This document shows positions 37,465 to 57,500 of a stretch of 64,000 nucleotides of DNA, piece after piece. Within the stretch, counting starts at the first letter, position 1, and each line of letters opens with the position of its first letter. The position numbers were made by a program, and so were the translations under genes. Origin of the DNA: Maribacter flavus (GTDB lineage Bacteria; Bacteroidota; Bacteroidia; Flavobacteriales; Flavobacteriaceae); contig NZ_VUOE01000001.1 in NCBI RefSeq assembly GCF_008386635.1, forward strand, positions 682,001 through 746,000. Reading direction: 5' to 3'. The notes beneath the pieces were generated by a model. The model was not told the origin of the DNA. It saw only the letters and a list, made by a program, of their open reading frames with translations, and made no database searches.

Positions 37465-37489
37465 ATTAATTATATCTAACATAATTTTT

Positions 37490-40400
37490 TTAATTTAAAG
37501 TTACATTAAGTCCCAATAGGAAAGTCCTTGCTACAGGCATGAAACCTCCGTCGTAACCAATATCTATACTATTTGGTGTTTGAATTTCGGGATTTAGACC
37601 TGAATATTTTGTCCAAGTAGCCAAGTTTTGTCCTTGAATGTATACTGACGCCCTGGAAACTCCCGGAAGTGAATTCAACAGATTGTCAGTGAAATTGTAT
37701 GTCAATTGTACGTTCTTTATCCTAAAGTAGCTACCGTCTTCAACAAAATAAGAAGATGGACGGCTACTTACTTGATCGTTTGCATCCATTATGGGAACGG
37801 TGGCACCTGGATTGGCAGCAACCCAGGTAGATGGATCTGCTTGAGGATTTGTAGGCTGCCAAGCATCATATAAAGCCCTTCTTGAGCGGTTACCTTGGAA
37901 GGTGTTAAAATCAGCGAAGTACCGTACGTAGTTGTAAATATCATTGCCTTGAGATCCGTTTCCAAAAATGTTCAAGGCCAGATTTTTATAGGTGAAATCC
38001 AAATTGATACCGTAAACAAAATCCGGATGTGGATTACCTATTACTGTTCTATCGTCATCATTTATAACGCCATCTCCATTTATATCCGCAATCTTTAACT
38101 TACCTGGAGCATTATAGGTGCCGTATTCCGGCCAAGCATCCGCCTCTGCCTGTGATTGGAAAATACCAACCGTTTTAAATCCAAAAAAGGAAGAAAGTGG
38201 AGATCCTGCCTGAGTAACGGTAAGCGATGGTACCCTTCTGGAACCCCCTAAGAATCTAGTGGAAGGATTATCATCTAATTTGTCAACATTATTTGTATAG
38301 TGTGAAAAATTTGTATTGATACTATAGCCAAAATCACCTTTTTTGTCACTAAAGCCCAGAGCCAAGTCTACACCATTATTGGTAATACCACCTACGTTGA
38401 AACGCGGAGCATCCGCTTGTCCAGCTGTATAGGTTGGAGGAATCTGGAACAACATATCCGTCGTAACCCTGTTATAAACATCAATTTCAAAGGAAAGTCT
38501 GCTATCCAAAGCAGTAAGATCCAAACCAATGTTATTGGTCGTCGTAGTTTCCCATTTTGCGTTAGGGTTACCAAAGGCCTGGGGCGCAAAACCAATCGCA
38601 GGGGATGAAGGGTTGCCGTCTATAGGATAACCTCCCGTGCCAATGTTGGATTGAAAGGTGGTAAACGCATTATAGTCCCCTATTTGCTGATTCCCTGTCT
38701 GACCCCATCCATACCGCAATTTAAGGTTGTCGATCCATCCTATATTATCCATAAAACTCTCGTCCGAAATACGCCAACCCAAACTAAATGCAGGGAAGAT
38801 TGCACTTCTGGAGGCCGATTGGAATCTGGAGGAGGAATCATTTCTTAATGTAAACTGCGCCAAATATTTACCGTTGTAGTCATAATCTATTCTTCCAAAC
38901 TGAGACCAAAGCGAATAATCCTGTTCCACAAAACCATAGTTGGTCGCTGTAGTGGCATTACCTAAATTAAGGTAACTTAGAATATTGGTCGTTTCAAAGG
39001 CAAATCGTTGTCTAGAAGCCCCAAAACGTTCCTCAAATTGTTGTATACTTTCAACTCCCAGGAAAGCGGTAACGTTGTGGGCATCGTTAAACGTGTTGGT
39101 ATACGTCAATCCATTGGTCCAGGTCCATTGATACTCATATTCTTCCCTTGCTGTAGAACTGTTGATGAAGTTACCCTCAACATATTCGGGTTGCGGTCTT
39201 CCCAAATCACGTTCCCTTTGAACCCTACTATCCAAACCAAAACTTGAACGGATACTCAAATTTGGAGTAATTGCCAGATCAGCAAAAACATTTCCCAATA
39301 AACGCAACCTATAAGTCCTATCATCTTGATCTCTAGACAAAACCGCAAAAGGATTAAAGTTGTTACCAAGGTTTGCCCCCCTACTACCCGCAAAATTGCC
39401 GGCTATATCCCGTACGGGCAATAACGGATGGTGCTTGTAGGCAGCGGAAACCGCATTCTGTTCCTGGTCATTCTGAAAATTACCTTTTTGATTGTCAAAA
39501 GAGGCAGTAAAATTCTCGCCAATAGTCAACTTATTGTTGAATGCCTTGAATTCTGTGTTTGCCCGTAAAGAAATCCTGTTATAGCTGGCAAACTTTACAA
39601 GGTAATCTTGTTCAAAATACCCCAAGCTAAATGCATATCTGGCACTTTCAGTGGCCCCTGATGCGGAAATATTATGCTGTTGAATTGGGGCCGATCGAGT
39701 AACCTCGTTCCACCAATTTGTGTCCGCAGATCGAGTAATGGCATAAATATTACCTTCCTCTAAAGCATATAGACTTGGATCCGTCCCCGGATCACCTTCG
39801 TTCGCTCCACTTGGAAAGACAAAATCAGGAATCGTAACTTCTCCATTGGGGCCAAAAGTATATTGACCATGACTAGGCACTTTTCCTGCATAGATATCGG
39901 CCAAGTAAAGATACTCGCCCAGTTCACGGGCATTTAGTGCCTCCGGATCTTTCTCTGGAGAACCTATCCCATAATAGGAGTTGTATGAAATGGTAGGCTG
40001 TCCAAGTTTACCCTTTTTCGTGGTAATGATGATAACTCCATTTGCAGCACGGGAACCATAAATGGAGGCGGCAGATGCGTCCTTAAGAACTTGAAGCGAT
40101 TCAATGTCGTTTGGATTAAAATTTGCTTGAGACTGAGTAGGAACACCATCAACAATGTATAAAGGAGCGTTATTACCAACGGTACCAAATCCTCTAATTC
40201 TCACGGTAGCCTCACCACCAGGTCTAGCATCGTTGATAATACTTATTCCTGAAGCTCTACCTTGCAATTGCTGAGCAAATGTTGTTGCAGGAACTGCCAG
40301 AAGATCTTCTGTATCCACTACAGAGACGGAACCTGTTAAGTCCTTCTTAGCCTGCGAACCATACCCAGTCACAACAACTTCATCCAATTTACTGGCATCC

Positions 40401-40687
40401 TCCTCCATGGTAACATCGATGGTAGATTGACCGTTTACAGGAACTTCAACCGTTTTAAAACCAATGTAGCTAAACACCAATGTAGCGTTGTCATTTACAT
40501 TATTCAAGGTATAATTACCGTCAAAATCAGTTTGGGTACCTGTCGTCGTGCCTTTAATCAAAACACTGGCACCGGGCAAAGGACCCATTGGGTCAGAAAC
40601 CGTACCTGTTACTGTTTGGGCCTTTGCCAATCCAATGCATAAAAATGCACAAAACAGCAGAAAACCTTTAAAGAATGTACTCTTCAT
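37490..40687 (-). CDS. susC: SusC/RagA-family TonB-linked outer-membrane transporter
   Basis: A 1065-residue protein of normal SusC length. A signal peptide (1-24, ending AKAQ) precedes the carboxypeptidase-like domain (about 25-105, VTGTVSDPMGPLPGASVLIKG). The region around LDEVVVTGYGSQAKKDLTGSV precedes the plug domain with the SusC signature (NAPLYIVDGVP, DIESLQVLKDASAASIYGSRAANGVIIITTKKG, shown in part). The rest is a 22-strand barrel. It imports oligosaccharides with SusD, energised by TonB-ExbB-ExbD. It is the first gene of the operon. A promoter could not be identified clearly. Confidence 0.96.
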   Translation of the reverse strand: MKSTFFKGFLLFCAFLCIGLAKAQTVTGTVSDPMGPLPGASVLIKGTTTGTQTDFDGNYTLNNVNDNATLVFSYIGFKTVEVPVNGQSTIDVTMEEDASKLDEVVVTGYGSQAKKDLTGSVSVVDTEDLLAVPATTFAQQLQGRASGISIINDARPGGEATVRIRGFGTVGNNAPLYIVDGVPTQSQANFNPNDIESLQVLKDASAASIYGSRAANGVIIITTKKGKLGQPTISYNSYYGIGSPEKDPEALNARELGEYLYLADIYAGKVPSHGQYTFGPNGEVTIPDFVFPSGANEGDPGTDPSLYALEEGNIYAITRSADTNWWNEVTRSAPIQQHNISASGATESARYAFSLGYFEQDYLVKFASYNRISLRANTEFKAFNNKLTIGENFTASFDNQKGNFQNDQEQNAVSAAYKHHPLLPVRDIAGNFAGSRGANLGNNFNPFAVLSRDQDDRTYRLRLLGNVFADLAITPNLSIRSSFGLDSRVQRERDLGRPQPEYVEGNFINSSTAREEYEYQWTWTNGLTYTNTFNDAHNVTAFLGVESIQQFEERFGASRQRFAFETTNILSYLNLGNATTATNYGFVEQDYSLWSQFGRIDYDYNGKYLAQFTLRNDSSSRFQSASRSAIFPAFSLGWRISDESFMDNIGWIDNLKLRYGWGQTGNQQIGDYNAFTTFQSNIGTGGYPIDGNPSSPAIGFAPQAFGNPNAKWETTTTNNIGLDLTALDSRLSFEIDVYNRVTTDMLFQIPPTYTAGQADAPRFNVGGITNNGVDLALGFSDKKGDFGYSINTNFSHYTNNVDKLDDNPSTRFLGGSRRVPSLTVTQAGSPLSSFFGFKTVGIFQSQAEADAWPEYGTYNAPGKLKIADINGDGVINDDDRTVIGNPHPDFVYGINLDFTYKNLALNIFGNGSQGNDIYNYVRYFADFNTFQGNRSRRALYDAWQPTNPQADPSTWVAANPGATVPIMDANDQVSSRPSSYFVEDGSYFRIKNVQLTYNFTDNLLNSLPGVSRASVYIQGQNLATWTKYSGLNPEIQTPNSIDIGYDGGFMPVARTFLLGLNVTLN

Positions 40688-41463: not shown

Positions 41464-43185
41464 ATGAAAACTGAAACCGACTCAAAATATCTAATATTCA
41501 AAAACATCTTCAATTTTGTAGCTCTTCTACTATGTGTTTCTGTTTTTTTTGGATGTAATGAGGATGCAAAAGAAACACCCATAAAGCCAAATATTGTCTT
41601 TATTATGTCCGATGACCATGCCTATCAGGCCATTTCGGCATATGATAACCGCTTAATCGAAACACCCAACATAGACAGGATAGCAAAAATGGGGATGCTT
41701 TTCACGAATGCAAGCGTTACCAATAGTATCTGTGCCCCATCTAGGGCGACCATCCTTACCGGAAAACATTCACACCTAAACGGAAAAATAGACAATGTAT
41801 CCCCTTTTGACACCACGAATGTTACCTTTCCCCAACTCCTACAAAAGGCAGGGTACCAAACGGCAATGTTTGGAAAACTGCATTTTGGTAACAATCCCAA
41901 AGGTTTTGACCAGTTCAAGATTTTACCTGGACAAGGATTCTATTATAACCCAGACTTCATCACAAAAAACGAAGGCGAGATCAATGTAAAGGGATACGTA
42001 ACAGATATTGTAACCGATATGACCCTTGATTGGCTGGAAAACGAACGTCAAGCGGATAAACCCTTTATGCTTATGTATTTGCACAAAGCACCACACCGCT
42101 CGTGGTTGATGGCCGAACGTCATATGGCCGAGTTTACCCAGAAAAAATTCCCGGAGCCGGTCACCTTGTTCGACACCCATGAAGGTATGCCTGCCGCAAA
42201 AGTCGCCAAAATGAAGGTTGACGGTGATATGGGCTGGGCAGCGGACAGTAAACTATATCCAGAAGTTATGGATCAATTGGGATTGGAGGAGCAAATTGGT
42301 TTTGATAAACGTAGGTATGAAATGACGGTGGGCCGATTAGACTCCACCCAGAAAGCTACATTTGACACCTATTATAGGGCCATTGCGGATGAATTTATAG
42401 CGAACTTACCCAACATGACCGAAACCGATATTGCCAAATGGCGCTATCAGCGCTATATGCAGGATTATCTGGGCACTATTAAATCCGTTGATGAAAACGT
42501 AGGTAGGGTGCTGGATTATCTGGAAGCCAACAATATGATGGAAAATACCATTGTCGTTTATACCTCGGACCAAGGATTTTACTTGGGCGAACATGGTTGG
42601 TTCGATAAAAGATTCGTGTATGACGAAAGCCTAAAAACACCTTTGTTGGTTTCTTGGAAAAACCATATAAAACCTGGAAGTGTTTCCGATGAACTAGTGC
42701 AAAACTTGGATTTTGCCCAAACATTTTTGGATGTTGCCGGAGTGGAGCAACCAGCGGATATGCAAGGAAAAAGTTTGGTGCCGGTGTTGACCGATGACAT
42801 GGAAAATTGGGACAGGGATGCCGTATATTACCATTACTACGAGCACCCCTCCGAACACAACGTAAACAGACATTATGCGGTAATTACAAAGGATTACAAA
42901 CTGATCCATTACTATTTTGATATGGATTATTGGGAATTGATAGACCGAAAAAAAGATTCGTTGGAGCAGCACAATTATTATGATGACCCTGCCTATGCCA
43001 ATATACAGAAAGACCTCCACCAAAAACTGGATGCCCTGCGGAAGCTATACGGAGATTCCGAGGCCCTTAGCCAACGGTATATTGACGAATTTATGCCCCT
43101 TGCAAAGGAAGGAAAGGTCTATGGGGTTGAAGAAGAGATCTTAAAACCCATGGTGGAAAAATGGGAAAACTCGAAGAAGGATTGA
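41464..43185 (+). CDS. S1-family sulfatase lipoprotein
   Basis: A 573-residue exported lipoprotein (lipobox FFGC, Cys31). The metal-binding start KPNIVFIMSDDHAYQA (Asp50, Asp51) and the sulfatase signature SICAPSRATILTG are present. Cys90 is the residue converted to formylglycine. The downstream YTSDQGFYLGEHGWFDKRF carries further metal and substrate residues. It cleaves sulfate esters, most likely from an algal polysaccharide, though the subfamily cannot be fixed here. No formylglycine-generating enzyme gene is in the window. It is divergent from susC and ends at a hairpin at 43230-43257. Confidence 0.93.
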   Translation: MKTETDSKYLIFKNIFNFVALLLCVSVFFGCNEDAKETPIKPNIVFIMSDDHAYQAISAYDNRLIETPNIDRIAKMGMLFTNASVTNSICAPSRATILTGKHSHLNGKIDNVSPFDTTNVTFPQLLQKAGYQTAMFGKLHFGNNPKGFDQFKILPGQGFYYNPDFITKNEGEINVKGYVTDIVTDMTLDWLENERQADKPFMLMYLHKAPHRSWLMAERHMAEFTQKKFPEPVTLFDTHEGMPAAKVAKMKVDGDMGWAADSKLYPEVMDQLGLEEQIGFDKRRYEMTVGRLDSTQKATFDTYYRAIADEFIANLPNMTETDIAKWRYQRYMQDYLGTIKSVDENVGRVLDYLEANNMMENTIVVYTSDQGFYLGEHGWFDKRFVYDESLKTPLLVSWKNHIKPGSVSDELVQNLDFAQTFLDVAGVEQPADMQGKSLVPVLTDDMENWDRDAVYYHYYEHPSEHNVNRHYAVITKDYKLIHYYFDMDYWELIDRKKDSLEQHNYYDDPAYANIQKDLHQKLDALRKLYGDSEALSQRYIDEFMPLAKEGKVYGVEEEILKPMVEKWENSKKD

Positions 43186-43636: not shown

Positions 43637-46435
43637 TTGAAAAACGTTGTATTATTTCTTGTAATATTCACTTCTATTGTAAAGGGTCAGGAACTTCCGC
43701 CAATCAAGAATTTTTCACCTTCAGATTTTGGTGCGGAAAACCAAAACTGGTCAATCTCACAGTCCAATGATCGCCTTATCTATGTAGCGAACAACAAAGG
43801 GCTTCTTGAGTTTAATGGTGCAGAATGGTTCTTATATCCGTCTCCCAATCAAACGATTATGCGGTCTGTAAGAGTAATCGATGAAAAAATCTACACCGGT
43901 TGCTACATGGAATTTGGATATTGGACAAAAAACCAGGTAGGTACATTGATATATGAATCCCTTTCCAACAGGTTCCGGGACAAACTCTTAGAGGACGAGG
44001 AGTTTTGGAATATCCTAAAAGTAGATAACCTAGTCCTGTTCCAGTCCAAAAAACGGATATACATCTATGACGAGGCAAGGCAAACATTGGAATATCTAGA
44101 GGCAAGAACGACCTTGCCAAGGATTTGGAAATTGGGAAAAACGGTTTTCTACCATACTATTGACGATGGACTTTATAAAATTAAAAATGGGGAAAAGGAA
44201 CTGGTCAATAATGAGGTGTCGGTCACAAGTGACGAGGTTGTTGAAATCATGGATTTCAATGGTAAAATACTGATACTGACCAGACATAATGGATTCTATC
44301 AAATTTCAGGGGATAAAGTAGAACCATGGCCAACACAGATAGATGTGAATTTGGCGGATGCCTCGGTTTATACCGCTTTACGACTATCAAATAATACCAT
44401 TGCCATTGGCACCATATCCAATGGACTTTTTTTGCTCAACCCAGAAGGCAAGCTACTTTATCAAATTTACATGGAAAATGGCCTTAGGAACAATACGGTA
44501 CTCTCGTTGTTCGAAGATATGGACAAGAGCATCTGGCTTGGACTTGATAACGGTCTTGGACATGTAGACCTAAATTCTCCTTTTTTGATTTATGACGATA
44601 TCGTTGGGGATATTGGAAGCGTGTACAGCGCCCTAGTATTTAATGAAAGGGTTTATGTAGGTACCAATCAAGGGCTGTTTTATAAGCCCATTAATTCAAA
44701 GTCCAATTTTCAATTTGTACAAGGTACGGAGGGCCAGGTATGGCAACTTAAGGAAATAGACGGGAAACTTTTTTGCTGTCATCACACTGGCACCTTTGTC
44801 ATTGAGGATGAAAAAGCGAGGAAGATTGAAGGCACTGAGGGTTCATGGAACCTCCAGCCCGTAGGGAATTATGGGGACCTTGTGATACAGGGGGCCTATG
44901 ACGGTCTATATATCTTGGAAAAAAAGGACAATATTTGGAAATTACGTAATAAGATCGATGGTTTTGGAAATTCTTCCCGGTTCGTTGAGCTTTTTGACAG
45001 TTTTATTTTCGTAAACCATGAATACAAGGGTTTGTTTAAAATTACCCCCGACAATGAATTTAAGAGGGTCAAATCGGTTGTGATAGATACCCTGCTTCGT
45101 GGGGATAATTCGGCCATTGTTTCCGCCAAGGAGGAACTGTTATATGCGGATAAAAAAGGTGTTTTCAAGTATGTCGATAATGCCGATAAATTTGTTAAGG
45201 ATAGTCTCCTTAGCCGTATATATGGGGAATCCAACTATACTTCCGGCAAAATGGCCGCCATTAATGATGAAATATGGTTCTTTACCAAGGACAACATCAA
45301 TAAGGTTTCAAAAAGTAGTTTGAACAATAAAAAGGTCGTTACACAAATCGAGTTGGGTGAATCCAGTAGAAATAGTATTTCGGGGTATGAAAATATCGCA
45401 CCCCTGGAAAATCCAGGTAAATATATATTAGGAACAGGACTGGGCTATATTATTTTGGACAGTAATAAGAATAAGGACAAAAATTTCATTGTAGAAATAG
45501 CGGAGATCGAAGTATCGTCCTCCACGATGGAAAAAAATAACCGTCAACTTTTGGACAAAAACGAAAAAGGCGATTTAGAAAATCATGAGAACAATTTAGT
45601 AATCTCCTATTACACCCCAGAGTACGGAAAATACATCCGGCCAAAATACCAATATAGGTTACGTGGTATCTATGATACATGGAGCGATTGGTCCTTGAAC
45701 CATACGGCAACTTTCAGCAACCTGCCCTATGGAGATTACCTATTTGAGGTCCGTTCCAAAATTGGTGATAGTCTTGCCGAAAAAACAGCAACATTTTCTT
45801 TTACCATCAAAAAGAAGTGGTATCAAACGAATATGGCAATCGCACTATATGCAGTTTTGGGAATCATAGGACTATTTTTCATGCATTTGGCATACAGGCG
45901 ACATTACAAACAAAGACAACAAAAGTTGGTGGAAAGGACAGAAAAGGAAATGCGGATCGCCAAGGCCGAAAATGAAAAAGAAATTGTACGCCTTAAAAAT
46001 GAACAGCTAAAACAGCGCGTTCGAATGAAAAGTAGTGAACTCGCCGCTTCTACCATGAGCCTTTTGAGAAAGAACGAGGTTTTAAACGAGGTAAAAAAAC
46101 AGTTGGAGCAAAAGGTCAAAGACCCAACTATAAAAACACCTATTACAAAAATTATTGATGAAAGTTTAAATAGGAATGACGATTGGGAACTATTTAAGGA
46201 AGCTTTCAACAATGCCGATAAGGAGTTCTTGGGTAAGCTAAACAAATTCCATACAAATTTGACCCAAAATGACATTCGACTCTGCGCCTATTTACGCTTA
46301 AATCTTTCGTCCAAGGAAATTGCACCGCTTTTGAATATTTCTACAAAAAGTGTTGAAGTAAAGAGATACAGGCTTCGGAAAAAACTGGGCCTAGAACACG
46401 ACAAAAACCTGGTGGATTATATCTTAAACCTATAA
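43637..46435 (+). CDS. Membrane sensor-regulator: beta-propeller, Y_Y_Y domain and LuxR-type HTH
   Basis: A 932-residue one-component regulator. A signal peptide (1-17, ending VKGQ) leads to a periplasmic two-propeller sensor (about 25-640; repeated blades such as NNTVLSLFEDMDKSIWLGLDNGLGH, shown in part). A Y_Y_Y domain (about 665-725, YQYRLRGIYDTWSDWS), a TM helix (about 733-755) and a coiled coil follow. The C-terminal LuxR-type HTH (about 874-930) has LRLNLSSKEIAPLLNIST and VEVKRYRLRKKLGL. It has no kinase or receiver domain, unlike hybrid two-component regulators. The start is TTG. It probably senses a glucan product and switches on the operon that follows (inference). Confidence 0.92.
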   Translation: MKNVVLFLVIFTSIVKGQELPPIKNFSPSDFGAENQNWSISQSNDRLIYVANNKGLLEFNGAEWFLYPSPNQTIMRSVRVIDEKIYTGCYMEFGYWTKNQVGTLIYESLSNRFRDKLLEDEEFWNILKVDNLVLFQSKKRIYIYDEARQTLEYLEARTTLPRIWKLGKTVFYHTIDDGLYKIKNGEKELVNNEVSVTSDEVVEIMDFNGKILILTRHNGFYQISGDKVEPWPTQIDVNLADASVYTALRLSNNTIAIGTISNGLFLLNPEGKLLYQIYMENGLRNNTVLSLFEDMDKSIWLGLDNGLGHVDLNSPFLIYDDIVGDIGSVYSALVFNERVYVGTNQGLFYKPINSKSNFQFVQGTEGQVWQLKEIDGKLFCCHHTGTFVIEDEKARKIEGTEGSWNLQPVGNYGDLVIQGAYDGLYILEKKDNIWKLRNKIDGFGNSSRFVELFDSFIFVNHEYKGLFKITPDNEFKRVKSVVIDTLLRGDNSAIVSAKEELLYADKKGVFKYVDNADKFVKDSLLSRIYGESNYTSGKMAAINDEIWFFTKDNINKVSKSSLNNKKVVTQIELGESSRNSISGYENIAPLENPGKYILGTGLGYIILDSNKNKDKNFIVEIAEIEVSSSTMEKNNRQLLDKNEKGDLENHENNLVISYYTPEYGKYIRPKYQYRLRGIYDTWSDWSLNHTATFSNLPYGDYLFEVRSKIGDSLAEKTATFSFTIKKKWYQTNMAIALYAVLGIIGLFFMHLAYRRHYKQRQQKLVERTEKEMRIAKAENEKEIVRLKNEQLKQRVRMKSSELAASTMSLLRKNEVLNEVKKQLEQKVKDPTIKTPITKIIDESLNRNDDWELFKEAFNNADKEFLGKLNKFHTNLTQNDIRLCAYLRLNLSSKEIAPLLNISTKSVEVKRYRLRKKLGLEHDKNLVDYILNL

Positions 46436-46732: not shown

Positions 46733-49700
46733 ATGAAGATTAGGTTTCTCGCATTATTCATCTCCCTTTGCTCCCTCTCTGGTTATTCCCAAACAGATAA
46801 AGTGGCCTTGGTTCAAACCCAAAATGGTACCAAGCTTCAGGTGAACGGTGAGGATTTTATGATCAATGGGATGAACTGGGATTACATTCCCATCGGTACC
46901 AATACGGTAAATGCAAGATTTTGGGAAAAGTCGGACGATATTATCAAAGCGGGATTGGATACGGAGATGTCCCTGTTAAAAAACATGGGGGTCAATGTAA
47001 TACGACAATATACGGGGGTTCCTGCCAAATGGATAAAATATATCTATGAGGAGTATGGCATTTATACCTTGCTCAATCACTCCTTTGGCAGGTATGGATT
47101 GACCATAGATGGTGTTTGGACACCCGTAACTGTTTACGACGATCCTAAAACCCAAGCATTGTTGACCCAAGAATTGACCCTGCTCGTAGAAGAGTACAAA
47201 GACACTCCTGGCCTACTTATGTACTTATTGGGTAACGAAAACAACTACGGACTTTTTTGGCAAGGTGCGGAAACGGAGGATTTCCCAGATGATGAACAAG
47301 AAAAGCAGTTCATTGGTGAAAAACGTGGTAGGCCCATGTATCGCCTTATGAACGAAGTGACGAAAAAAATGAAGACCATCGATGGAAATCATCCCGTTGC
47401 GATTTGTAATGGCGATGTCCTTTTCATAGATATTATTGCCGAGGAGTGTCCGGATGTTGATATTTATGGCACAAATGTATACCGAGGTGTTTCTTTTGGG
47501 GACATGTTCCAAGTGGTCAAGGAAAAATTGAACAAGCCCATCATGTTTACCGAGTTTGGTGCGGACGCATACAACGCGGTGGAGAATAAGGAAGATCAAT
47601 TATCTCAGGCCTATTATATGGTGGGCAATTGGGAAGAAATCTACGCCAATGCCGCAGGTCTAGGGAAAGCTGGCAACTCCATAGGAGGGTTTACCTTTCA
47701 GTTCAGTGATGGCTGGTGGAAATATGGGTTTGACGACCGTAAGAACGCCGATGTCCACGACAATAATGCCTCCTGGTCCAATGGTGGCTATTCGAGGGAT
47801 TTGGCTGGCGAAGGAGTTAATAACATGAACGAGGAATGGTTTGGTATCTGCGCAAAAGGTCAAACGAACTCACGAGGACTTTATGACCTATATCCTCGGG
47901 CAGCTTATTACGCATTGCAAGAGGCCCATAAATTGAACCCATATGAACCCGGTATGGATTTGAACTTTTTGGAAAACTATTTTGACAATATCGTTCTTAT
48001 GGACGCCGTACTTAAGGCGAGGGGAGATAAGGCGGCTTTAAATTCTGAACAAAGCAGTTTATTACGGATAAGCAACTTACTAGCTAAATTCGCTACGTTT
48101 AGTACGGGGGGAAGTCTAATTACTACCCCCGACAATCCAGACCCAGACGACCCAAATACCTTCCCAAACCAACTGGGCTTCGACCATATGCAATCCTATT
48201 TTGTAGGCGTTGAAGGCAACCCGGCTCCAAATATGCGGGCAGAAGTGAATCTAAACGTGGTGGGCAATGTCGCCCAGAATCCCATCAACGAAATCTTCTA
48301 CGAAAACAATTCACGGCCTATAGACGTGAGCACCGATCGCGGAGATGTAGTAGTTTCGGACGTAAACAGGGTACGGGTATACCAGGCCGAATTTGAATGG
48401 AACGCCAAGGAATTCGATCTTCGCGGATTCTACAGGACCGGGCACTACCACTGGGGCTATGAAGGCGATTTCTTCGGATTTTACCCTGAAGCCAACTACG
48501 GCCCAAACCTCGATATTTACAATGGGGAAATCTTGGGCGCTGAAATTGATGGCAAAGGACCCTTAAAGGGCTTAAAGGTCGCGGTAGGGCCTCAATTGTG
48601 GTGGGGTGCCAATCCTACCATGTTGTTCAAATACCGGAAGCATATTGGTAAATTCAACGTTACGGGCATTTATCATCGCGATTTTGAGACCGATGTGGAG
48701 CTGGATGAAAACGGTCGCCGAATATTGGACCTCAACCAAGTACGCAGTGGTGTGATACCCCCATGGCCCACAGAACGTGCGGCAATTGCCATTGAGCGTG
48801 AATTTGGAAAATTTGGAGTGGAACTGGGCGGCATTTGGTCCGGAAGCCCATTGAACGGCCTAACGTTCCAGGATGTACGTGGCGAAACGGGCAACTACAT
48901 CGTTTTTGAAGACCGTATACAGGCAAGTGACAACTGGGGCGGAAAGGTCAAGATCACCTACGAAGGCGGTAAATTTAATTGGTACGGTCAAGCTTCTGCC
49001 ATGGGGCTTATTGCCAATGGCGGGGCGGACCAGACATTGACATTTACCGGATGGAAACTACGCGATACGGGAAGTGGCAACGTTACCAGCCTTTTGACAG
49101 GTTTTACCATTGCTTCGGGCAAATTCCAGATCGCCCCTAATTTTATGATCCAGAAACCATTGGTAGAGGCGATGCCCAATGATGTTCAAGGACCGGGCCG
49201 TTTAAGGAATATTATCGACGACCCTTTCTCGGTACGTGCCAACAGGGAGACCATCGGTAGTGAACTATTGATATCCTTTGATCCTACGCCGGGCACCTGG
49301 ATGTATGAATGGGACAATGACCGTGCGGAGGACGCCCCGTTTGCGATGAACCTCGGTTTTGTCTACAGGCACTTGCCAACCACCATGGACGCCCACATTG
49401 GCTTCCTGGCCAACAGGCAGTTTTTTGCCTTCCCCAACTCGGCTCCTGCCGAGGATCTCTGGGAAATACATTCCCGCATGGTGTCAAAAATAGGACCGGA
49501 CCTGGGCTTTATCGGTAACTTCTACTACGGCAATGGTCAGGGAAACGGTGATAGCCAACGCCTTATCAAACGATTTGGTGGGGATATCAGGGCCATTTAT
49601 AAGAATTATAAACTTTCTACCCACGTAAAGGTGAACGATTGGGGGCCTTTTGATTACCATCGTGATTTTAACTTGACGTTTCCCCTACAATTGATGTTGG

Positions 49701-49918
49701 ATGTCTCCACAACCTTGGGCAAACCGGACTGGTTCATCCTGCCAAGTACCCAAGTAGGCATTCGGGGAATATGGCGCTCCTTGAACGAATTTTCACCGAG
49801 ATATGCGCCAAATGCCGCCGAAGAATTTTCAAACCAACCGATCATTAGCCCTGTAGGTTTCCCCAACGGATCGGAATGGGAAATCATGACTTATGTACAT
49901 ATCAATATTGGTAAATAA
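46733..49918 (+). CDS. Clan GH-A glycosidase fused to an outer-membrane beta-barrel
   Basis: A 1061-residue exported protein with a signal peptide (1-19). Residues about 25-400 form a TIM-barrel of GH2/GH-A type: LLGNENNYGLFW gives the acid/base Glu169 after Asn168, and KPIMFTEFGADAY the nucleophile Glu274. A Pro/Asp-rich linker (460-480) follows. From about 500 to the end runs a series of amphipathic aromatic strands (RVRVYQAEFEW, GLKVAVGPQLWW, WGGKVKITYEGGKFNWYG, STQVGIRGIWRSLN), ending EWEIMTYVHINIG, as in outer-membrane porins. The first gene of the glucan operon, it would place an active site at a pore. GH family number is uncertain; beta-1,3-glucan is the likely substrate from context. 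Confidence 0.85.
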   Translation: MKIRFLALFISLCSLSGYSQTDKVALVQTQNGTKLQVNGEDFMINGMNWDYIPIGTNTVNARFWEKSDDIIKAGLDTEMSLLKNMGVNVIRQYTGVPAKWIKYIYEEYGIYTLLNHSFGRYGLTIDGVWTPVTVYDDPKTQALLTQELTLLVEEYKDTPGLLMYLLGNENNYGLFWQGAETEDFPDDEQEKQFIGEKRGRPMYRLMNEVTKKMKTIDGNHPVAICNGDVLFIDIIAEECPDVDIYGTNVYRGVSFGDMFQVVKEKLNKPIMFTEFGADAYNAVENKEDQLSQAYYMVGNWEEIYANAAGLGKAGNSIGGFTFQFSDGWWKYGFDDRKNADVHDNNASWSNGGYSRDLAGEGVNNMNEEWFGICAKGQTNSRGLYDLYPRAAYYALQEAHKLNPYEPGMDLNFLENYFDNIVLMDAVLKARGDKAALNSEQSSLLRISNLLAKFATFSTGGSLITTPDNPDPDDPNTFPNQLGFDHMQSYFVGVEGNPAPNMRAEVNLNVVGNVAQNPINEIFYENNSRPIDVSTDRGDVVVSDVNRVRVYQAEFEWNAKEFDLRGFYRTGHYHWGYEGDFFGFYPEANYGPNLDIYNGEILGAEIDGKGPLKGLKVAVGPQLWWGANPTMLFKYRKHIGKFNVTGIYHRDFETDVELDENGRRILDLNQVRSGVIPPWPTERAAIAIEREFGKFGVELGGIWSGSPLNGLTFQDVRGETGNYIVFEDRIQASDNWGGKVKITYEGGKFNWYGQASAMGLIANGGADQTLTFTGWKLRDTGSGNVTSLLTGFTIASGKFQIAPNFMIQKPLVEAMPNDVQGPGRLRNIIDDPFSVRANRETIGSELLISFDPTPGTWMYEWDNDRAEDAPFAMNLGFVYRHLPTTMDAHIGFLANRQFFAFPNSAPAEDLWEIHSRMVSKIGPDLGFIGNFYYGNGQGNGDSQRLIKRFGGDIRAIYKNYKLSTHVKVNDWGPFDYHRDFNLTFPLQLMLDVSTTLGKPDWFILPSTQVGIRGIWRSLNEFSPRYAPNAAEEFSNQPIISPVGFPNGSEWEIMTYVHINIGK

Positions 49919-49925
49919 CAACGGA

Positions 49926-51341
49926 ATGATGAAAAACAACAGATATATCAATACCAGAAATACCTTGTTTTCCGCTATTGTTCTGACCTTGCTGTTGGGA
50001 TGTGAACGGAACTTTTCAGAAGACGTAGCGTTTGCGACCTTTCCGCCTAATGGAGACGTTTTCATCGATACCTTTTCCGCAGGCCTGGATTATTTTCCAT
50101 TTGTGGATGGAGGAGCGGACCCTGAAGCATTTAGCGTGGATACCCAAGAGTTTTTTGCCGGCAATGCCTCCATGCGTTTTGACGTGCCCCCTTTTGGTGT
50201 GGGGTTTGTAGGCGCCACATTTAATACAACGGTAAAAAGGGATCTGTCCGGTTTTGATGCCCTTACCTTTTATGCCAAGGCATCCCAAGCTGCGGATATA
50301 AACGAAATTGGATTTGGTATCGAAGGGGAAACAGGAAATAAATTCCAAGTGACCACTCAAAATTTACAAATAAGTACCCAATGGGAAAAATACACCATAC
50401 CCATACCAGACCCTTCAAAACTTTTTAATCAAACCGGATTGTTTTGGCTAGCCGAGGGTGCCGAAAACGAATTTGACGAAGGCGGTTATACCTTGTGGTT
50501 TGATGAAATAAAATTTGAAAAGACCGGAACCTTGGGGCAGCCGAGGCCGGCAATCCTAAACGGTGCAGACGTGCAACAGCCCGGTTTTGTGAACATTGGT
50601 CAATCATTGACCGGCCTTACCCAAACCGTGAACTTGGAATCCGGGGAAAATATTACCGTGATTGCCGCACCGTCGTACTTTGACTTTTCATCATCAAATA
50701 ATGGGGTTGCCCAGGTAAATGAGTTGGGAAATATTTCGGTTACGGGTCTTGGTCAAACAACCATTACAGCCTCCTTGGCAAACAATCCTGCCGAAGGTTC
50801 CTTGGAGCTGAATGTTGAAAGTGCCTTTGAATTCGCCCCTACCCCGCCGTCACGGGCGCCTGAAGATGTCATCTCGGTTTTTAGCGATGCCTATGCGAAC
50901 GTTGCGGTAGATTACTTTAATGGCTTTTTTACCCCTGACGGACAAACCACCCAAGGTGGCTCACCGCCGCTAGACTTTAACGGGGACAGGATCATCAACT
51001 ATACCCAACTCAACTTTGTGGGCATTGGTACTTTCTTGAACGTGGCACCGATCAATGCTTCGGCCATGACCACACTACATATCGATATCAAGGTCAATGA
51101 AGCCATTGACCCGGGAGATTTTATAAGGATCCAATTGTTAAACTCCGTTGGCAATGGCGAAACCTCCGGTTCGGTGACCCTGGCGGCCTCCGATCTAAGA
51201 CAAGACGAATGGGTCAGTTTTGATATCCCATTGGCCGACTTTACAGGGTTGGGCGATCGCTCACAAATTGGTCTATTGTTCTTTGTATCGGACAGCACCA
51301 TTTCAGACATTTTTGTTGACAACATCTATTATTACAGGTAA
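49926..51341 (+). CDS. Putative surface glycan-binding lipoprotein
   Basis: 471 residues from the ATG at 49926 (MMKNNRYINTRN), with lipobox LLLGC (Cys26). A longer in-frame start at 49893 would overlap the previous gene by 26 bases and has no signal peptide. Residues about 50-200 look like a carbohydrate-binding jelly roll (SMRFDVPPFGVGFVGATF, GYTLWFDEIKFE). A BIG2-like Ig domain follows (about 220-310, QVNELGNISVTGLGQTTITASL), and a second jelly roll to the end (DIFVDNIYYY). This matches SusE/SusF-like or surface glycan-binding proteins that feed a glycan to nearby enzymes. It starts 7 bases after the barrel gene stop. Confidence 0.8.
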   Translation: MMKNNRYINTRNTLFSAIVLTLLLGCERNFSEDVAFATFPPNGDVFIDTFSAGLDYFPFVDGGADPEAFSVDTQEFFAGNASMRFDVPPFGVGFVGATFNTTVKRDLSGFDALTFYAKASQAADINEIGFGIEGETGNKFQVTTQNLQISTQWEKYTIPIPDPSKLFNQTGLFWLAEGAENEFDEGGYTLWFDEIKFEKTGTLGQPRPAILNGADVQQPGFVNIGQSLTGLTQTVNLESGENITVIAAPSYFDFSSSNNGVAQVNELGNISVTGLGQTTITASLANNPAEGSLELNVESAFEFAPTPPSRAPEDVISVFSDAYANVAVDYFNGFFTPDGQTTQGGSPPLDFNGDRIINYTQLNFVGIGTFLNVAPINASAMTTLHIDIKVNEAIDPGDFIRIQLLNSVGNGETSGSVTLAASDLRQDEWVSFDIPLADFTGLGDRSQIGLLFFVSDSTISDIFVDNIYYYR

Positions 51342-51360: not shown

Positions 51361-52194
51361 ATGCTTAATAGAAAAAGAAAGATTGTGAAAAATACTGTGT
51401 ATCAAGTTTTTATGGGCCTTTTTATCAGCTCATTCATCGGGTGTGAGGTGGATGAAACCCAGACGGTAACGACCTTGACCAATGTGGTACTTTCGGAGGA
51501 ATTCGATACAGACGGTGCCCCAAATCCAGATGTATGGGGCTTTGATATTGGACGGGGACCTAATGGCGACGGTTGGGGAAACCAAGAATTGCAGTATTAC
51601 ACAGATCGTCCAACGAACGTGGCCATAGAAAACGGCAACTTAAAAATTACGGTCCGCCAGGAATCCTTCCAGGGTGTGGGCTATACATCCGCCCGATTGT
51701 TGACCAAAAACCGATTTGAACAGGCTTATGGTCGTTTTGAAGCAAGAATACAATTACCAACAGGCCAAGGAATTTGGCCCGCCTTTTGGATGTTGGGTGC
51801 GGATATTGATGAGAACCCGTGGCCCGGAGCCGGTGAAATCGATATCATGGAATACAGGGGTCAAAACCCCACCATCTTAGTTGGTAGTGTGCACGGTCCA
51901 GGCTATTCGGCGGGAAATGCCATTTCAAAGGAATATGAACTGCGCAACGACAGGTTCGATACGGGGTATCACATTTTTGGTATTGAATGGTCTCCAGTTG
52001 CCATCAACTTCTATGTGGACGATGTGCTCTACAACCAAATAACTCCAGAAGATGTAACTGGGGAATGGGTTTTTAATAAGCCATTCTTTCTATTAATGAA
52101 CGTAGCGGTAGGAGGAAATTTCGTGGGGCCACCCAATTCTGAAACCCGGTTTCCCCAGACTATGCTGGTAGACTATGTACGCGTATTTAATTAA
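51361..52194 (+). CDS. GH16 laminarinase (endo-beta-1,3-glucanase) lipoprotein
   Basis: 277 residues from the ATG at 51361 (MLNRKRKIVKN), with lipobox FIGC (Cys28); a longer frame opening at 51220 lies inside the previous gene. GH16 features are WGFDIGRG, GWGNQELQYY, and the catalytic GEIDIMEYRG (nucleophile Glu159, Asp161, acid/base Glu164). The Met inside EIDIME is typical of the bulge-containing laminarinase subfamilies such as GH16_3. C-terminal parts are GIEWSPVAINFYVDDV and MLVDYVRVF. It cleaves internal beta-1,3-glucan bonds at the cell surface. It follows the binding protein by 19 bases. Confidence 0.95.
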   Translation: MLNRKRKIVKNTVYQVFMGLFISSFIGCEVDETQTVTTLTNVVLSEEFDTDGAPNPDVWGFDIGRGPNGDGWGNQELQYYTDRPTNVAIENGNLKITVRQESFQGVGYTSARLLTKNRFEQAYGRFEARIQLPTGQGIWPAFWMLGADIDENPWPGAGEIDIMEYRGQNPTILVGSVHGPGYSAGNAISKEYELRNDRFDTGYHIFGIEWSPVAINFYVDDVLYNQITPEDVTGEWVFNKPFFLLMNVAVGGNFVGPPNSETRFPQTMLVDYVRVFN

Positions 52195-52239: not shown

Positions 52240-54417
52240 ATGAAATCATTTTTTAAAAAAGGGAAATTAATTTCCATGTCGGCTTTATTGCTTTTATTTC
52301 TTGGATGTAGTGATGATGATGAAGTTTTACCGGAAGTTGTTGCAAGTTTCACCCAATCCATAGACCAGACCACGGGTACGGTCACGTTTACCAACAATTC
52401 CCAAAACGCCACTACCTATTCGTGGAATTTTGGAAATGGAAATACGTCTACGGCCAAAAACCCCACACAGGTCTATGAAAATGGGGACTATACGGTAACA
52501 TTGACAGCCTCAAATGTGGCCGGTGATTCTGATACGGCCACCGCGAACTTTACGATTACCATACCGGATGACGGAGGCGATGGTGGAGATGGAGGAAACG
52601 ATTTTGATAGTGGCCTGCTTACCAATGGCGATTTTGAGGCCGGTGTGGAACCTTGGATTGGCAATGCTGCCAACGTACAGGAAGACGGGGGAAACAGCTT
52701 TAATTTTGCAGATGTACAGGCAGCGGGTAACCCATTTGATGTGAACTTGAGCCAAGTTGTGGCCATAACCCAAGGCACCAATTACATTTTAAAGTTTGAT
52801 GCTTCATCGGACAGGGAAAGGACCATATTGGCAGGTATAGGGTTAAACGAGGCCCCTTTCACCAATACAAACGTGGAAATTAACTTGACAACGGCAACCC
52901 AAACCTTTGAGCTACAACTCGCCGCAACTGATTTTGGCGGGTCCAATAGTCGCGTATTGTTCGATATGGGCGCAGCCATAGGTACCGTGGTAATAGACAA
53001 TGTATCCTTAGTTGAGGGCGGAGATGGTAGTGATTCCAACACCGGAGGTGGTGATAGTGGTTTTGACAGCGGACTATTGACCAATGGTGATTTTGAGGGA
53101 GGCGTAACCCCATGGATCGGGAATGCGGCCAACGTACAGGAAGATGGTGGAAACAGCTTCAATTTTGCAAATGTCATGGCCGCAGGTAACGTATTCGACG
53201 TAAACCTTAGCCAAGTTGTGGCAATTACCCAAGGAACCAACTATATCTTGACCTTTGATGCTTCTTCCGATCGTGAACGCACGATGTTAGCCGGAATCGG
53301 TTTGAATGAAGCACCGTTTACAAACACGAGCGTTTCTGTAAACCTGACCCCTGAGACGCAAACGTTTACGTTGCAATTGGCCGCTTCTGATTTTGGTGGC
53401 GCCAATAGTCGGGTCCTATTTGATATGGGAGGTGAAGTTGGTGTAGTGGTTATTGATAATGTCTCCTTGGTTGAAGGTGGCGATGGCAGTGATTCCAACC
53501 CAGGAAATGGCGGAGGTACCGGTGAGGTGACCGCTTTTTGTAACACCCAGATCCAAGCCTTTGGGGGTGATGCAGGTTCAGATATTTTCTTGTCCGTTTT
53601 TAACGTAAACGCTACTACCATGCGCGTTGAAATCTCTTCCGCGGATAGCGACCCGGTCGACTTATTGGTATTGCCCGCTGGCGCGTGGGTTCCTAACGAT
53701 GCCGGTATTTCAATGGCACCTATGGAAGTTTCACCCGGAGTTTGGGCGGGAGAATTTTTCTTCCCCAATGGAGCACCTGAAAATGTAGAACTTTTCATTG
53801 AGTGGAGTAAGTTATCTTTTGCAGGAAACTGGAGATCTACGGCCCCTGACATCTTGGATACAGTCGCTTTCAATGCTACGTGTGACACAGGATCCGGAGG
53901 AGGTACCGGCGGTGGAAATACAGGTGATGGTTCTGGAATCGTTGTAGATTTTGAGGATGGCGGTACATTGACAGGTGCCTTTGACAATGGTGCCAATGGT
54001 GCTAATGCGACCAACCCCGATCAAAGTGGGATCAATACATCGGCCACGGTATATCAGTTTAACAAAATTGTAGGCTCCGCCTGGTATTCAGGAGCGTTTA
54101 ATGTCTTTCCACAAGACCTTTCAGCGACGGGCGGTACAACTTTTAAAATGAAAATATGGTCACCAAATGCAGGTGTCAATGTACGCTTTCAGTTGGAGAA
54201 AGAAGGGAACCAAGGCCCCATTGTCACCTACAACGTAGACCAAACGGTTACGGAAGCCAACACCTGGGTTGAGTTGACATTCGATTTTTCATCGACACCG
54301 CTTGATCTGACCGATGGTTATGATAAAATCGTCATCTTCCCAGATTATGATGAGTCCAACCAAGTACCGGTTGCTACGGAGGCAATCTACTATTTTGATG
54401 ACATAACCCAGGAATAA
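52240..54417 (+). CDS. PKD/CBM multi-domain glycan-binding lipoprotein
   Basis: A 725-residue surface lipoprotein (lipobox LFLGC, Cys23). A PKD domain (about 34-105, TYSWNFGNGNTSTAKNPTQVY) is followed by two CBM4/9-like modules (about 121-268 and 274-424), each starting FDSGLLTNGDFE and ending VVIDNVSLVEGG. They repeat with a 153-residue (459-base) period and are very similar. A further domain (about 435-550) and a C-terminal jelly roll (570-725) follow. Gly/Asp/Ser linkers separate the modules. No catalytic motif is seen, so it probably binds beta-1,3-glucan. It lies in the operon between GH16 and the phosphorylase. Confidence 0.88.
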   Translation: MKSFFKKGKLISMSALLLLFLGCSDDDEVLPEVVASFTQSIDQTTGTVTFTNNSQNATTYSWNFGNGNTSTAKNPTQVYENGDYTVTLTASNVAGDSDTATANFTITIPDDGGDGGDGGNDFDSGLLTNGDFEAGVEPWIGNAANVQEDGGNSFNFADVQAAGNPFDVNLSQVVAITQGTNYILKFDASSDRERTILAGIGLNEAPFTNTNVEINLTTATQTFELQLAATDFGGSNSRVLFDMGAAIGTVVIDNVSLVEGGDGSDSNTGGGDSGFDSGLLTNGDFEGGVTPWIGNAANVQEDGGNSFNFANVMAAGNVFDVNLSQVVAITQGTNYILTFDASSDRERTMLAGIGLNEAPFTNTSVSVNLTPETQTFTLQLAASDFGGANSRVLFDMGGEVGVVVIDNVSLVEGGDGSDSNPGNGGGTGEVTAFCNTQIQAFGGDAGSDIFLSVFNVNATTMRVEISSADSDPVDLLVLPAGAWVPNDAGISMAPMEVSPGVWAGEFFFPNGAPENVELFIEWSKLSFAGNWRSTAPDILDTVAFNATCDTGSGGGTGGGNTGDGSGIVVDFEDGGTLTGAFDNGANGANATNPDQSGINTSATVYQFNKIVGSAWYSGAFNVFPQDLSATGGTTFKMKIWSPNAGVNVRFQLEKEGNQGPIVTYNVDQTVTEANTWVELTFDFSSTPLDLTDGYDKIVIFPDYDESNQVPVATEAIYYFDDITQE
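52600..53487 (+). repeat. In-frame tandem duplication of a CBM module
   Basis: Two copies with a 459-base period, beginning at 52600 and 53059, lie within the PKD/CBM gene. Both encode FDSGLLTNGDFE, an intermediate PWIGNAANVQEDGGNSFNFA and the end VVIDNVSLVEGGDGSDSN. Differences are mostly synonymous or conservative, so the duplication is fairly recent. Confidence 0.9.
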
Positions 54418-54507: not shown

Positions 54508-57500
54508 ATGACCGAAAAATCCAAGGTACCCTTAGAATATATCGAAATAGAGAACGAAAGCTATTTTAAAATTGGCAATTACGATTCCATGCGGCCTTTC
54601 TTCATGAGTATCGTAAGTGATTCCAATCACTGGATGTTCATTTCAAGCAATGGCGGATTGACAGCTGGCCGTAAAAATGCCGAATTCTCCCTATTTCCTT
54701 ATTATACGGACGATAAAATCACAGAATCGGCAGAAATAACGGGTAGCAAAAGCATTTTTAGGGTTCATAAGGACGACACCGTATGGATTTGGGAACCGTT
54801 TTCAAACCTTGGAAAAACTGCTTATCGTACCACTCGAAACCTATATAAAAACAGTCATGGCAATAAATTAATTTTTGAAGAAATAAACCATGACCTGCAA
54901 TTGACTTTTTCCTATCAGTGGAATTCAAGTAACCGTTTTGGTTTTGTGCGTAAGTCCCAGATTCATAACAACTGCGATTCAAAAATTGAAATTTCCGTTT
55001 TGGACGGTATCCAAAATGTGCTTCCTTACGGTGTGGGAAGCTATACCCAGACCAATTCCAGCAATCTGGTCGATGCCTATAAAAGAAATCAATTATTAAA
55101 GAATTCCGGCCTTGGCATCTATGCCCTGAGTGCCATTATTGTGGACAAGGCGGAACCCAGCGAGGCCCTAAAGGCCAATGTGGTTTGGTCACTAGGTCTT
55201 GATAATTTAGGGTATTTGGTTTCCTCCCTTCAATTAGATCATTTTAGAAGAACGGGTACCATAGGCACGGAAACCGATGTGAAGGCAGAAAAAGGAGCTT
55301 ATTTCATCCATGCCGATTTAATTTTGCCCCCAAATTCCAAAAAGGAATGGCAATTGGTGGCGAACGTAAACCAGGACCACAGTGCCATAATCGCTTTGGA
55401 CAAAAGTATCAAAGAGGATACGGGGCTTTACCAAAAAATCCAGGAGGATATAGATTTGGGGACGAAAAACCTGATTGGTCTTTGCGCGGCTTCGGATGGG
55501 CTACAGGACACTAAAGATGTCTTGAGGGATACCAGACACTTTTCCAATACGCTCTTTAACATCATGCGCGGTGGTATTTTTGACCACAATTACGATATCG
55601 AAAAACGGGATTTTAGGGCGTACCTAGTAAATGCCAACAAAGAGGTAGCTAAAAATAATAGTGCCCCGATTGATGCCCTACCGGAAATTTTTGCGGCCAA
55701 TGATTTAAAGCAGCAGGCGCTATCGAATACAGATGTACATTTCAAACGCCTTTGCTTGGAATACCTACCATTGAAATTTAGCAGAAGGCACGGAGATCCT
55801 AGCCGGCCATGGAACCGTTTCTCCATCAATACGCGTAGTGAAGTTGATGGATCCAAAATTTTGGATTACGAAGGCAATTGGAGGGATATCTTCCAGAATT
55901 GGGAGGCTCTTTCCATTTCTTACCCAGAGTTTTTGGAAAGTATGATCCACAAATTCCTGAACGCATCTACTTTTGACGGATACAATCCGTACCGAGTGAC
56001 CAAAGGGGGCTTTGACTGGGAAACAATTGAGCCGGACGACCCTTGGAGTTATATTGGGTACTGGGGCGATCACCAGATAATTTATCTGCTTAAATTTTTG
56101 GAACGGTTCGAAAGTCATAATCCCAAACAGTTGGAAAGCCTTTTGGACCAGGAAGTTTTTGTGTATGCCAACGTACCGTACAAAATTAAATCGTACGAAA
56201 AGCTTCTAGAAAACCCAAAGGATACGATTTTATTCGACGAAGAGCTGGATAAGGAAATCCGACAAAAACGGGCCGAACTAGGTGCGGATGGTGCACTTTT
56301 ACAAGATTCTAACGGAAGCATCGTAAGGGCGAATTTTCTGGAAAAGATTTTGGCAACGACCTTGGCAAAGCTTTCCAATTTTATTCCAGAGGGCGGTATC
56401 TGGATGAACACCCAACGGCCGGAATGGAACGATGCCAACAACGCGCTGGTAGGTAACGGCGTCTCCATGGTAACGCTCTATTACCTACGCCGGTTTTTGA
56501 ACTTTTTTAAAGAAATTTTTGAAAATATAGAAAAACCAGAGTTTACCATCGCTATTGAACTTTTTGAATTTTTCGATTCCGTAGCAAAAACGTTGGCCAG
56601 GCATAAAGAAGCCCTGACCGGCCCCATGAATGACCAAACCCGAAAAAATATCCTAGATGGACTAGGCAAGGCGGGCGCTTCCTTTCGAAATCAGGTTTAT
56701 GAAAATTCCTTTTCGGGTGAAAAAAGAAGTGTATCCCTGGAGGAATTGAAAGCGTTCATTGAACTCGAAATTAGGTATTTAGAACACTCCATTAAGGCCA
56801 ACAGGCGAAAAGACGATTTGTACCATGCCTATAATCTTATGTCCGTTACCCCAGACAATGGAGTGTCCATTTCCTACCTGGAAGAGATGCTTGAAGGTCA
56901 GGTGGCCGTTCTAAGCTCAGGATATTTATCCTCAAAAGAAGCATTGAACGTGCTGGATGCATTGAAGCACAGTAAACTTTTTCGTGAAGACCAATACAGT
57001 TATTTGTTGTACCCCAACAAGGAGCTTCCCCTGTTTTTGGAGAAAAACAACATCCCGGAAGCATCGGTCAAAAAATCGAAATTACTTACCAAGTTGGTAA
57101 AAGAAGGCAATAAGGAACTCATTGTAAGATCGGTTGACGGCTCTTACCACTTTAACGGGAACTTCAACAACGCCAACGATGTCACCAAAGCCTTGGATTC
57201 CCTTAGTAATAAAGAATATAAAAACTTAATTCCATCAGAACGGAACTATATTCTTCAGGTTTTTGAAGAAGTTTTCAACCATAAGGCCTTCACCGGCAGA
57301 TCGGGTACCTTTTACGGTTACGAAGGTTTGGGCTCCATCTACTGGCACATGGTTTCCAAGCTGTTTTTGGCGGTCCAGGAGTGCTGTCTAAAAGCGGTAC
57401 ATGAAGGAGAAAACCCTGAAATCGTAGGCAGGTTACTGGAACACTATTACGAAATCAATGAAGGGATCGGGGTACACAAATCCCCTACCCTTTACGGTGC

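Follow-up and report, generated by a model that had tools for sequence, protein, structure and literature searches.

The window analysed here, i.e., 64,000 nucleotides of the marine bacterium Maribacter flavus (contig NZ_VUOE01000001.1, positions 682,001 to 746,000 of the forward strand), carries at 46733–49918 on the plus strand a single open reading frame (ORF) whose 1061-residue product joins an enzyme domain of glycoside hydrolase (GH) clan GH-A to a predicted outer-membrane beta-barrel. With a probability of roughly 0.58, we read this fusion as a bifunctional outer-membrane protein for the uptake of beta-1,3-glucan (laminarin, a storage glucan of algae), in which an ungated pore would bear a glucanase at its inner mouth. 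Its likeliest role would then be to couple the import of beta-1,3-glucan to hydrolysis by an enzyme that faces the periplasm. Uptake of laminarin by Bacteroidota is usually thought of in terms of SusC/SusD, and PMC6246565 describes laminarin itself as one of the main sources of food in the sea.

The gene starts with ATG and fits the ORF boundaries exactly. Its product comprises a Sec-type signal peptide of about residues 1–19 (46733–46789; assigned by eye, and without a lipobox according to the lipobox rule), a TIM-barrel domain that includes a C-terminal helix region (residues 24–437; 46802–48043), and the predicted outer-membrane barrel (residues 444–1061; 48062–49915). The fusion is real and conserved. 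A genome scan revealed at least 591 stretches encoding a relative, the best 80 of which were kept, and 110 of 112 loci yielded chains of 1009–1066 residues (counting only frames of at least 900 residues, which L029 and L030 lack, while a few of the 110 end at contig edges), so that a chance fusion or an assembly error was rejected. Among 296 sampled genomes of the phylum, 46 contained some match, with 28 of these covering at least residues 21–1006 of the 1061 and the other 18 being enzyme-only, broken or weak. Records from Bacteroides finegoldii and Persicobacter encode versions of the fusion that are 54% and 61% identical to it, respectively. A query with the barrel half alone yielded 31 matches in 30 of the 296 genomes, 28 of them within fused open frames of at least 1028 residues and the other three in copies that are broken or cut off by a contig end (G235, G204 and G119). 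As none of the 31 represented an intact barrel without enzyme, a stand-alone barrel family was discarded as well. The fusion is probably functional. Two genomes of genus g85 hold copies broken by TAA codons (L029 in G119, and G235:C53), reflecting either decay or assembly error, and a third genome of this genus (G266) has an intact copy.

Pfam returned a weak match of the N-terminal part to the GH2 TIM barrel (PF02836; residues 34–286, E-value of 1e-4, 22.0 bits vs. a cut-off of 21). In the full AlphaFold2 model, strands and helices alternate up to residue 437 and only strands follow thereafter, and the best-scoring fold matches of this model are clan GH-A enzymes. The original prediction, made from the sequence alone, had named E169 and E274 as the catalytic glutamates of such a GH-A barrel, and both proved invariant in all 81 rows of an alignment of the window protein with the 80 kept loci (68–84% identical to it). 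E169 (47237–47239), located in a GNEN motif, aligns with the NE motif of GH2 beta-galactosidases and is the predicted acid/base, while E274 (47552–47554), located in a TEFG motif, aligns with the TEFG of a GH158 structure and is the predicted nucleophile. The domain thus displays the hallmarks of clan GH-A, i.e., a predicted (beta/alpha)8 fold, two catalytic glutamates, and an asparagine (N168) preceding the acid/base. GH2 enzymes carry jelly-roll and immunoglobulin-like (Ig) domains ahead of their TIM barrel, whereas the TIM domain of the fusion begins at about residue 24, right after the signal peptide. Fold and catalytic glutamates are shared with GH158 and GH157 endo-beta-1,3-glucanases and with GH2 enzymes, at about 10–21% identity in fold alignments and with weak sequence E-values (0.0028 for a GH2 enzyme and 0.0078 for GH158), and the enzyme probably constitutes a family of its own. 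For BuGH158, the catalytic residues are given as E137 and E220, with N136 ahead of the acid/base (PMC7157763), a pattern matched by N168-E169 and E274 of the fusion.

The last 550 residues had been proposed to resemble an outer-membrane barrel rather than an Ig, carbohydrate-binding module (CBM) or type IX secretion system (T9SS) tail, and the structure models and fold matches agree. When folded alone, the C-terminal half yielded a mean predicted local confidence (pLDDT) of 72.1 and a predicted template modelling score (pTM) of 0.72, and 26 strands, each 8 or more residues long, were selected by hand from the DSSP list; both models contain 26. Since a short, charged hairpin (residues 711–728) may belong to an outer loop, we give the strand number as 24–26, which leaves the parity argument made below unaffected. 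Foldseek reported 302 matches at an E-value of at most 0.001, and the 50 listed were all outer-membrane barrel proteins, including 4q35, which is titled only 'membrane protein' and which we take to be LptD. Neither Pfam nor the Foldseek matches listed pointed to a tail of the jelly-roll, Ig, CBM or T9SS kind. As in porin-type barrels, the predicted structure has antiparallel strands, short inner turns, long outer loops, and a hydrophobic alternation within strands that was equalled or exceeded by only 3 and 1 of 2000 within-strand shuffles on two hydrophobicity scales. No sequence relatives of this half were found in the PDB at E-values up to 10, and ten diverse C-terminal halves gave zero NCBIfam matches and, in two of the ten, only unrelated sub-threshold Pfam matches (E-value of at least 0.1). 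For the window protein, Pfam gave no match anywhere in the C-terminal half.

Conservation of the predicted outer loops was compared over 57 non-redundant sequences. Loops 3 (residues 570–598; 48440–48526; aromatic-rich), 4 (residues 622–628; 48596–48616), 8, and 12 (residues 971–981; 49643–49675) have mean conservations of 0.94, 0.98, 0.87 and 0.97, respectively, with conserved W, Y, F and H residues, and loops 1, 5 and 13 are variable (0.59, 0.45 and 0.58). Pooled, the outer loops are no more conserved than the strands (0.72 vs. 0.73). The four conserved loops suggest a path for glucan or a docking site.

It had also been proposed that the fusion opens a glucan operon without SusC/SusD and replaces that pair. 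The first part holds, since no SusC/SusD was found within the operon and the pair of the window (35710–40687, minus strand) runs in the opposite direction and is separated from the operon by a sulfatase and a regulator. In the strict sense of a cluster with a susCD-like pair, the operon is therefore not a polysaccharide utilization locus. Pfam detected neither Plug nor CarboxypepD_reg in the fusion, while the SusC of the window has both, and without a plug no TonB-linked energy would be expected for the fusion. Moreover, no close relative of laminarin-type SusC was found in the window's genome, whose best match to the SusC of locus L061 is only 36% identical; 18 other cluster SusC proteins (same strand, >900 residues) are 42–89% identical to the latter.

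The second part, i.e., the replacement of SusC/SusD, receives some support from family f21, in which 9 of the 11 genomes searched contain a match, four to the fusion and five to a barrel-less enzyme. Each of the four fused genes is followed by a lipoprotein gene of the Big2 type described below, accompanied by GH16, GH149 and GH17 in three loci (the contig of the fourth ends there), and no SusC/SusD match was found within the 12–20 kb fetched. Of the barrel-less loci, two of five are ordered SusC–SusD–GH16–enzyme–GH149 and a third reads SusD–GH16–enzyme–GH149 at a contig edge; the remaining two comprise one on a 6-kb contig and one (G123) without a SusC/SusD match in the 16 kb fetched. In a tree of 41 enzyme domains, the five barrel-less f21 enzymes form one clade (99/95) within a set of fused rows (two forks supported at 97/97 and 97/93). 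A single loss of the barrel in this clade is therefore most likely, and the exchange with SusC/SusD counts as one event. Six rows of family f29 form a second barrel-less group (98/96), and the tree includes one further f29 row. By eye, the barrel-less f29 enzymes of L127, L135–L138 and L140 adjoin genes resembling topoisomerase subunits; MFS and GH149 matches lie nearby in L127, L136 and L138, where more flank is available, and no SusC/SusD match was found.

While the f21 loci thus point to overlapping roles, replacement is not universal: SusC occurs upstream in 22 of the 67 loci for which 9 kb or more of upstream sequence is available (in 21 on the same strand), which weighs against strict replacement, and the other 45 have no SusC match in the 9–10 kb upstream. 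The 22 loci would fit a barrel that mainly serves as membrane anchor, enriching a periplasmic enzyme at the outer membrane, with glucan entering via SusC/SusD or other porins. Likewise, all 11 barrel-less enzymes with an available N-terminus have a lipobox and would thus use a lipid anchor instead (only 1 of the 11 shows an acidic export-type signal, defined here as at least two D/E at positions +2 to +6, our own proxy for the signal of PMC5080379). Nevertheless, 24–26 strands and several conserved aromatic outer loops exceed the needs of an anchor, and neither the 45 loci without an upstream SusC match nor the lack of a close laminarin-type SusC in the window's genome is readily reconciled with it, so that we regard a mere anchoring function as rather unlikely.

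The strand connections allow the enzyme to be placed relative to the membrane. On average, the 13 connections that lead from an odd to an even strand are 20.8 residues long, and the 12 that lead from an even to an odd strand 4.6 residues (Mann-Whitney p-value of 1.1e-4), and the other model gives 20.2 vs. 4.9 residues (p-value of 1.3e-4). Outer-membrane barrels have their long loops outside and their short turns inside, and an even strand number puts both ends in the periplasm. The N-terminal enzyme is therefore predicted to be periplasmic. How it contacts the pore cannot be read from the whole model, given the low pTM of the latter. The original prediction, in which glucan was cut before import (which we read as a surface enzyme), thus probably has the topology reversed. 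An enzyme cutting glucan outside, with the barrel passing the products inward, would match the surface endo-glucanases that are usual in SusC/SusD systems, and the fold relative BuGH158 is described as cell-surface anchored (PMC7157763). However, the loop alternation places the N-terminus inside, and the fusion lacks both lipobox and export signal: over 82 loci (the 80 kept plus the B. finegoldii and Persicobacter records), the lipobox rule matched two relatives, both within the signal peptide, and the acidic export-type signal none, so that a lipoprotein signal was rejected. (The rule also flagged one of the four fused f21 proteins, G298, whose cysteine was judged to lie within the signal peptide.) Furthermore, the helix ahead of strand 1 is also kept by barrel-less relatives and therefore belongs to the enzyme, leaving only 6–9 residues before strand 1 and thus little reach across the membrane. 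A surface-facing enzyme consequently appears quite improbable.

The order of enzyme, helix and C-terminal barrel is also that of autotransporters, which raises the idea of a self-secreting protein whose barrel exports only its own enzyme. Classical autotransporters have a 12-strand barrel of the Autotransporter family, whereas the fusion has 24–26 predicted strands, no autotransporter Pfam match, and a helix that belongs to the enzyme, making this origin highly improbable. A pore that exports or trims a polysaccharide being made rather than eaten, as for AlgE or PgaA, is hardly to be expected either: the operon encodes a GH16 of surface type as well as binding lipoproteins, its inner-membrane symporter belongs to an uptake class, and none of the eight products scanned is a glycosyltransferase.

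Judged by their sequences, the neighbours of the fusion across the 82 loci are those of a laminarin operon (the flank held differs among loci). In the window, all on the plus strand, a Y_Y_Y/LuxR-type regulator (43637–46435; homolog in 69 of 82 loci) precedes the operon, and the fusion is followed by a lipoprotein with a sub-threshold Big2 match (49926–51341; start codon by eye; 79 loci), likely a surface glucan-binding partner of the barrel; a GH16 lipoprotein (51361–52194; start codon by eye; 76 loci), likely a surface endo-beta-glucanase; and a PKD and CBM_4_9 lipoprotein (52240–54417; from domain matches and lipobox; 63 loci), likely a surface binding protein. Further downstream lie a GH149 beta-1,3-glucan phosphorylase without signal peptide by eye (54508–57942; NCBIfam NF058639, 1808 bits vs. 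a cut-off of 1150; 57 loci), a likely periplasmic GH17 lipoprotein (57939–59231; by Pfam and lipobox rule; 54 loci with a GH17 homolog), an inner-membrane sugar symporter of the major facilitator superfamily (MFS)/GPH type (59247–60671; by Pfam/NCBIfam; 16 loci) and a second GH17 (60692–61579; by Pfam). Homologs of SusC and SusD occur in 23 and 22 of the 82 loci, respectively. A lipobox was found in 83 of 86 segments of the Big2 lipoprotein, 76 of 83 of GH16, 53 of 69 of PKD-CBM and all 22 of SusD, with the acidic export-type signal in 72, 70, 53 and 19, respectively; for GH17, 54 of 64 segments have a lipobox and only 3 the acidic signal. These counts suggest that GH16, PKD-CBM and the Big2 lipoprotein are at the surface and GH17 in the periplasm. 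Promoter and terminator scans showed no excess over shuffles (42 vs. a mean of 41.0, and 13 vs. 22.5) and were not used.

Some observations on these clusters stand apart. The SusC/SusD pair at 35710–40687 (minus strand) and the sulfatase at 41464–43185 (plus strand) are probably part of another polysaccharide locus adjoining the laminarin operon. A GH16 of the operon's type (44% identity) occurs once more in the window's genome, on a different contig (G000:C2:1030907-1031611). The B. finegoldii record (L031; NZ_OY725931.1) is called plasmid 29, yet it carries valine-tRNA ligase and rpsA and is therefore more likely a chromosomal piece; its glucan cluster has a DUF6377 protein upstream in place of the LuxR-type regulator, and a GH3 but no GH149 match. 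Finally, other proteins near these clusters (L125:1996-3993, L130:3-3533 and L129) match the last ~165 residues of the Big2 lipoprotein and the C-terminal region of PKD-CBM, and these shared segments may be glucan-binding modules.

For glucan import through the fusion, we envisage that the surface lipoproteins (GH16, PKD-CBM and the Big2 lipoprotein) would bind and cut glucan, after which the pieces would cross the 24–26-strand barrel with no plug in the way and no TonB energy spent. At the inner mouth, the GH-A domain, being part of the same chain, would cut them as they emerge and so prevent back-diffusion, and periplasmic GH17, the MFS symporter and cytoplasmic GH149 would complete the breakdown. 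More tentatively, and with more doubt than confidence, the fusion could stand for a wider class of TonB-independent importers found in Bacteroidota from the sea to the human gut, in which one chain combines a large passive pore with a periplasmic glucanase, hydrolysis at the exit gives direction to transport, and exchange with SusC/SusD has occurred in evolution. If correct, there would be a second outer-membrane route for laminarin in many clusters without a SusC match nearby (the 45 of 67 loci above), surveys that use SusC/SusD as marker of glycan uptake would be affected, and the fusion would make it simple to test whether hydrolysis where a pore ends can take the place of TonB energy. Present annotation hides such a route, as the gene is called GH2 and its barrel half has no family.

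The same operon has been reported in Muricauda (PMC13188888, of 2026), with the gene called a GH2 beta-glycosidase, and a GH2 beta-1,6-glucosidase in the discussion of that paper; the word porin is absent from its main text. Its records VCNI01000001.1 and SGIU01000001.1 correspond to loci L053 and L037, with the fusion at the matching place. GH149 clusters without susCD pairs were also noted in PMC5827456, and the GH0 of a bloom survey (PMC10108472) is possibly the present protein, although we treat this as a lead only. The literature search, which left most subscription papers and preprints outside its reach, found no glycosidase fused to an outer-membrane pore, and no earlier description of the channel half seems to exist.

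Several known systems share features with the fusion. In SusC/SusD importers, too, a large outer-membrane barrel is encoded together with surface lipoproteins in a glucan operon, and these importers were exchanged with the fusion once, in family f21; in contrast to SusC, the fusion lacks the carboxypeptidase-like domain and plug and has an enzyme at its N-terminus instead. The AlgE, OprD/Occ, LamB, chitoporin and ScrY porins and the PapC/FimD ushers match the barrel by structure, but no enzyme domain is named in these matches; strand numbers are 16–18 in the porins and 24 in the ushers. A family missing from this list of fold matches, or from the one for the GH-A domain, is not thereby excluded. 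Outer-membrane pores fused to other domains are described as rare in PMC4827864, which lists SpmT (TC 1.B.79), a channel with a sphingomyelinase that, like the fusion, combines a putative pore and a hydrolase in one chain, but that belongs to Actinobacteria, has its hydrolase at the C-terminus and acts on another substrate. The cytochrome-porin Cyc2 resembles the fusion in having an N-terminal functional domain and a C-terminal predicted outer-membrane barrel, although its domain is a cytochrome that serves iron oxidation and has been proposed to act as a plug (PMC5566968). A further example is FbGH17b of Formosa, an MFS transporter fused to a GH17, for which the authors knew of no earlier fusion of transporter and carbohydrate-active enzyme (PMC6246565); laminarin-induced clusters of Formosa are shown in the same paper. 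Transport and hydrolysis of laminarin products are thereby united in one chain, as we propose for the present fusion, but FbGH17b relies on a helical MFS partner, whereas the partner here is a predicted outer-membrane beta-barrel.
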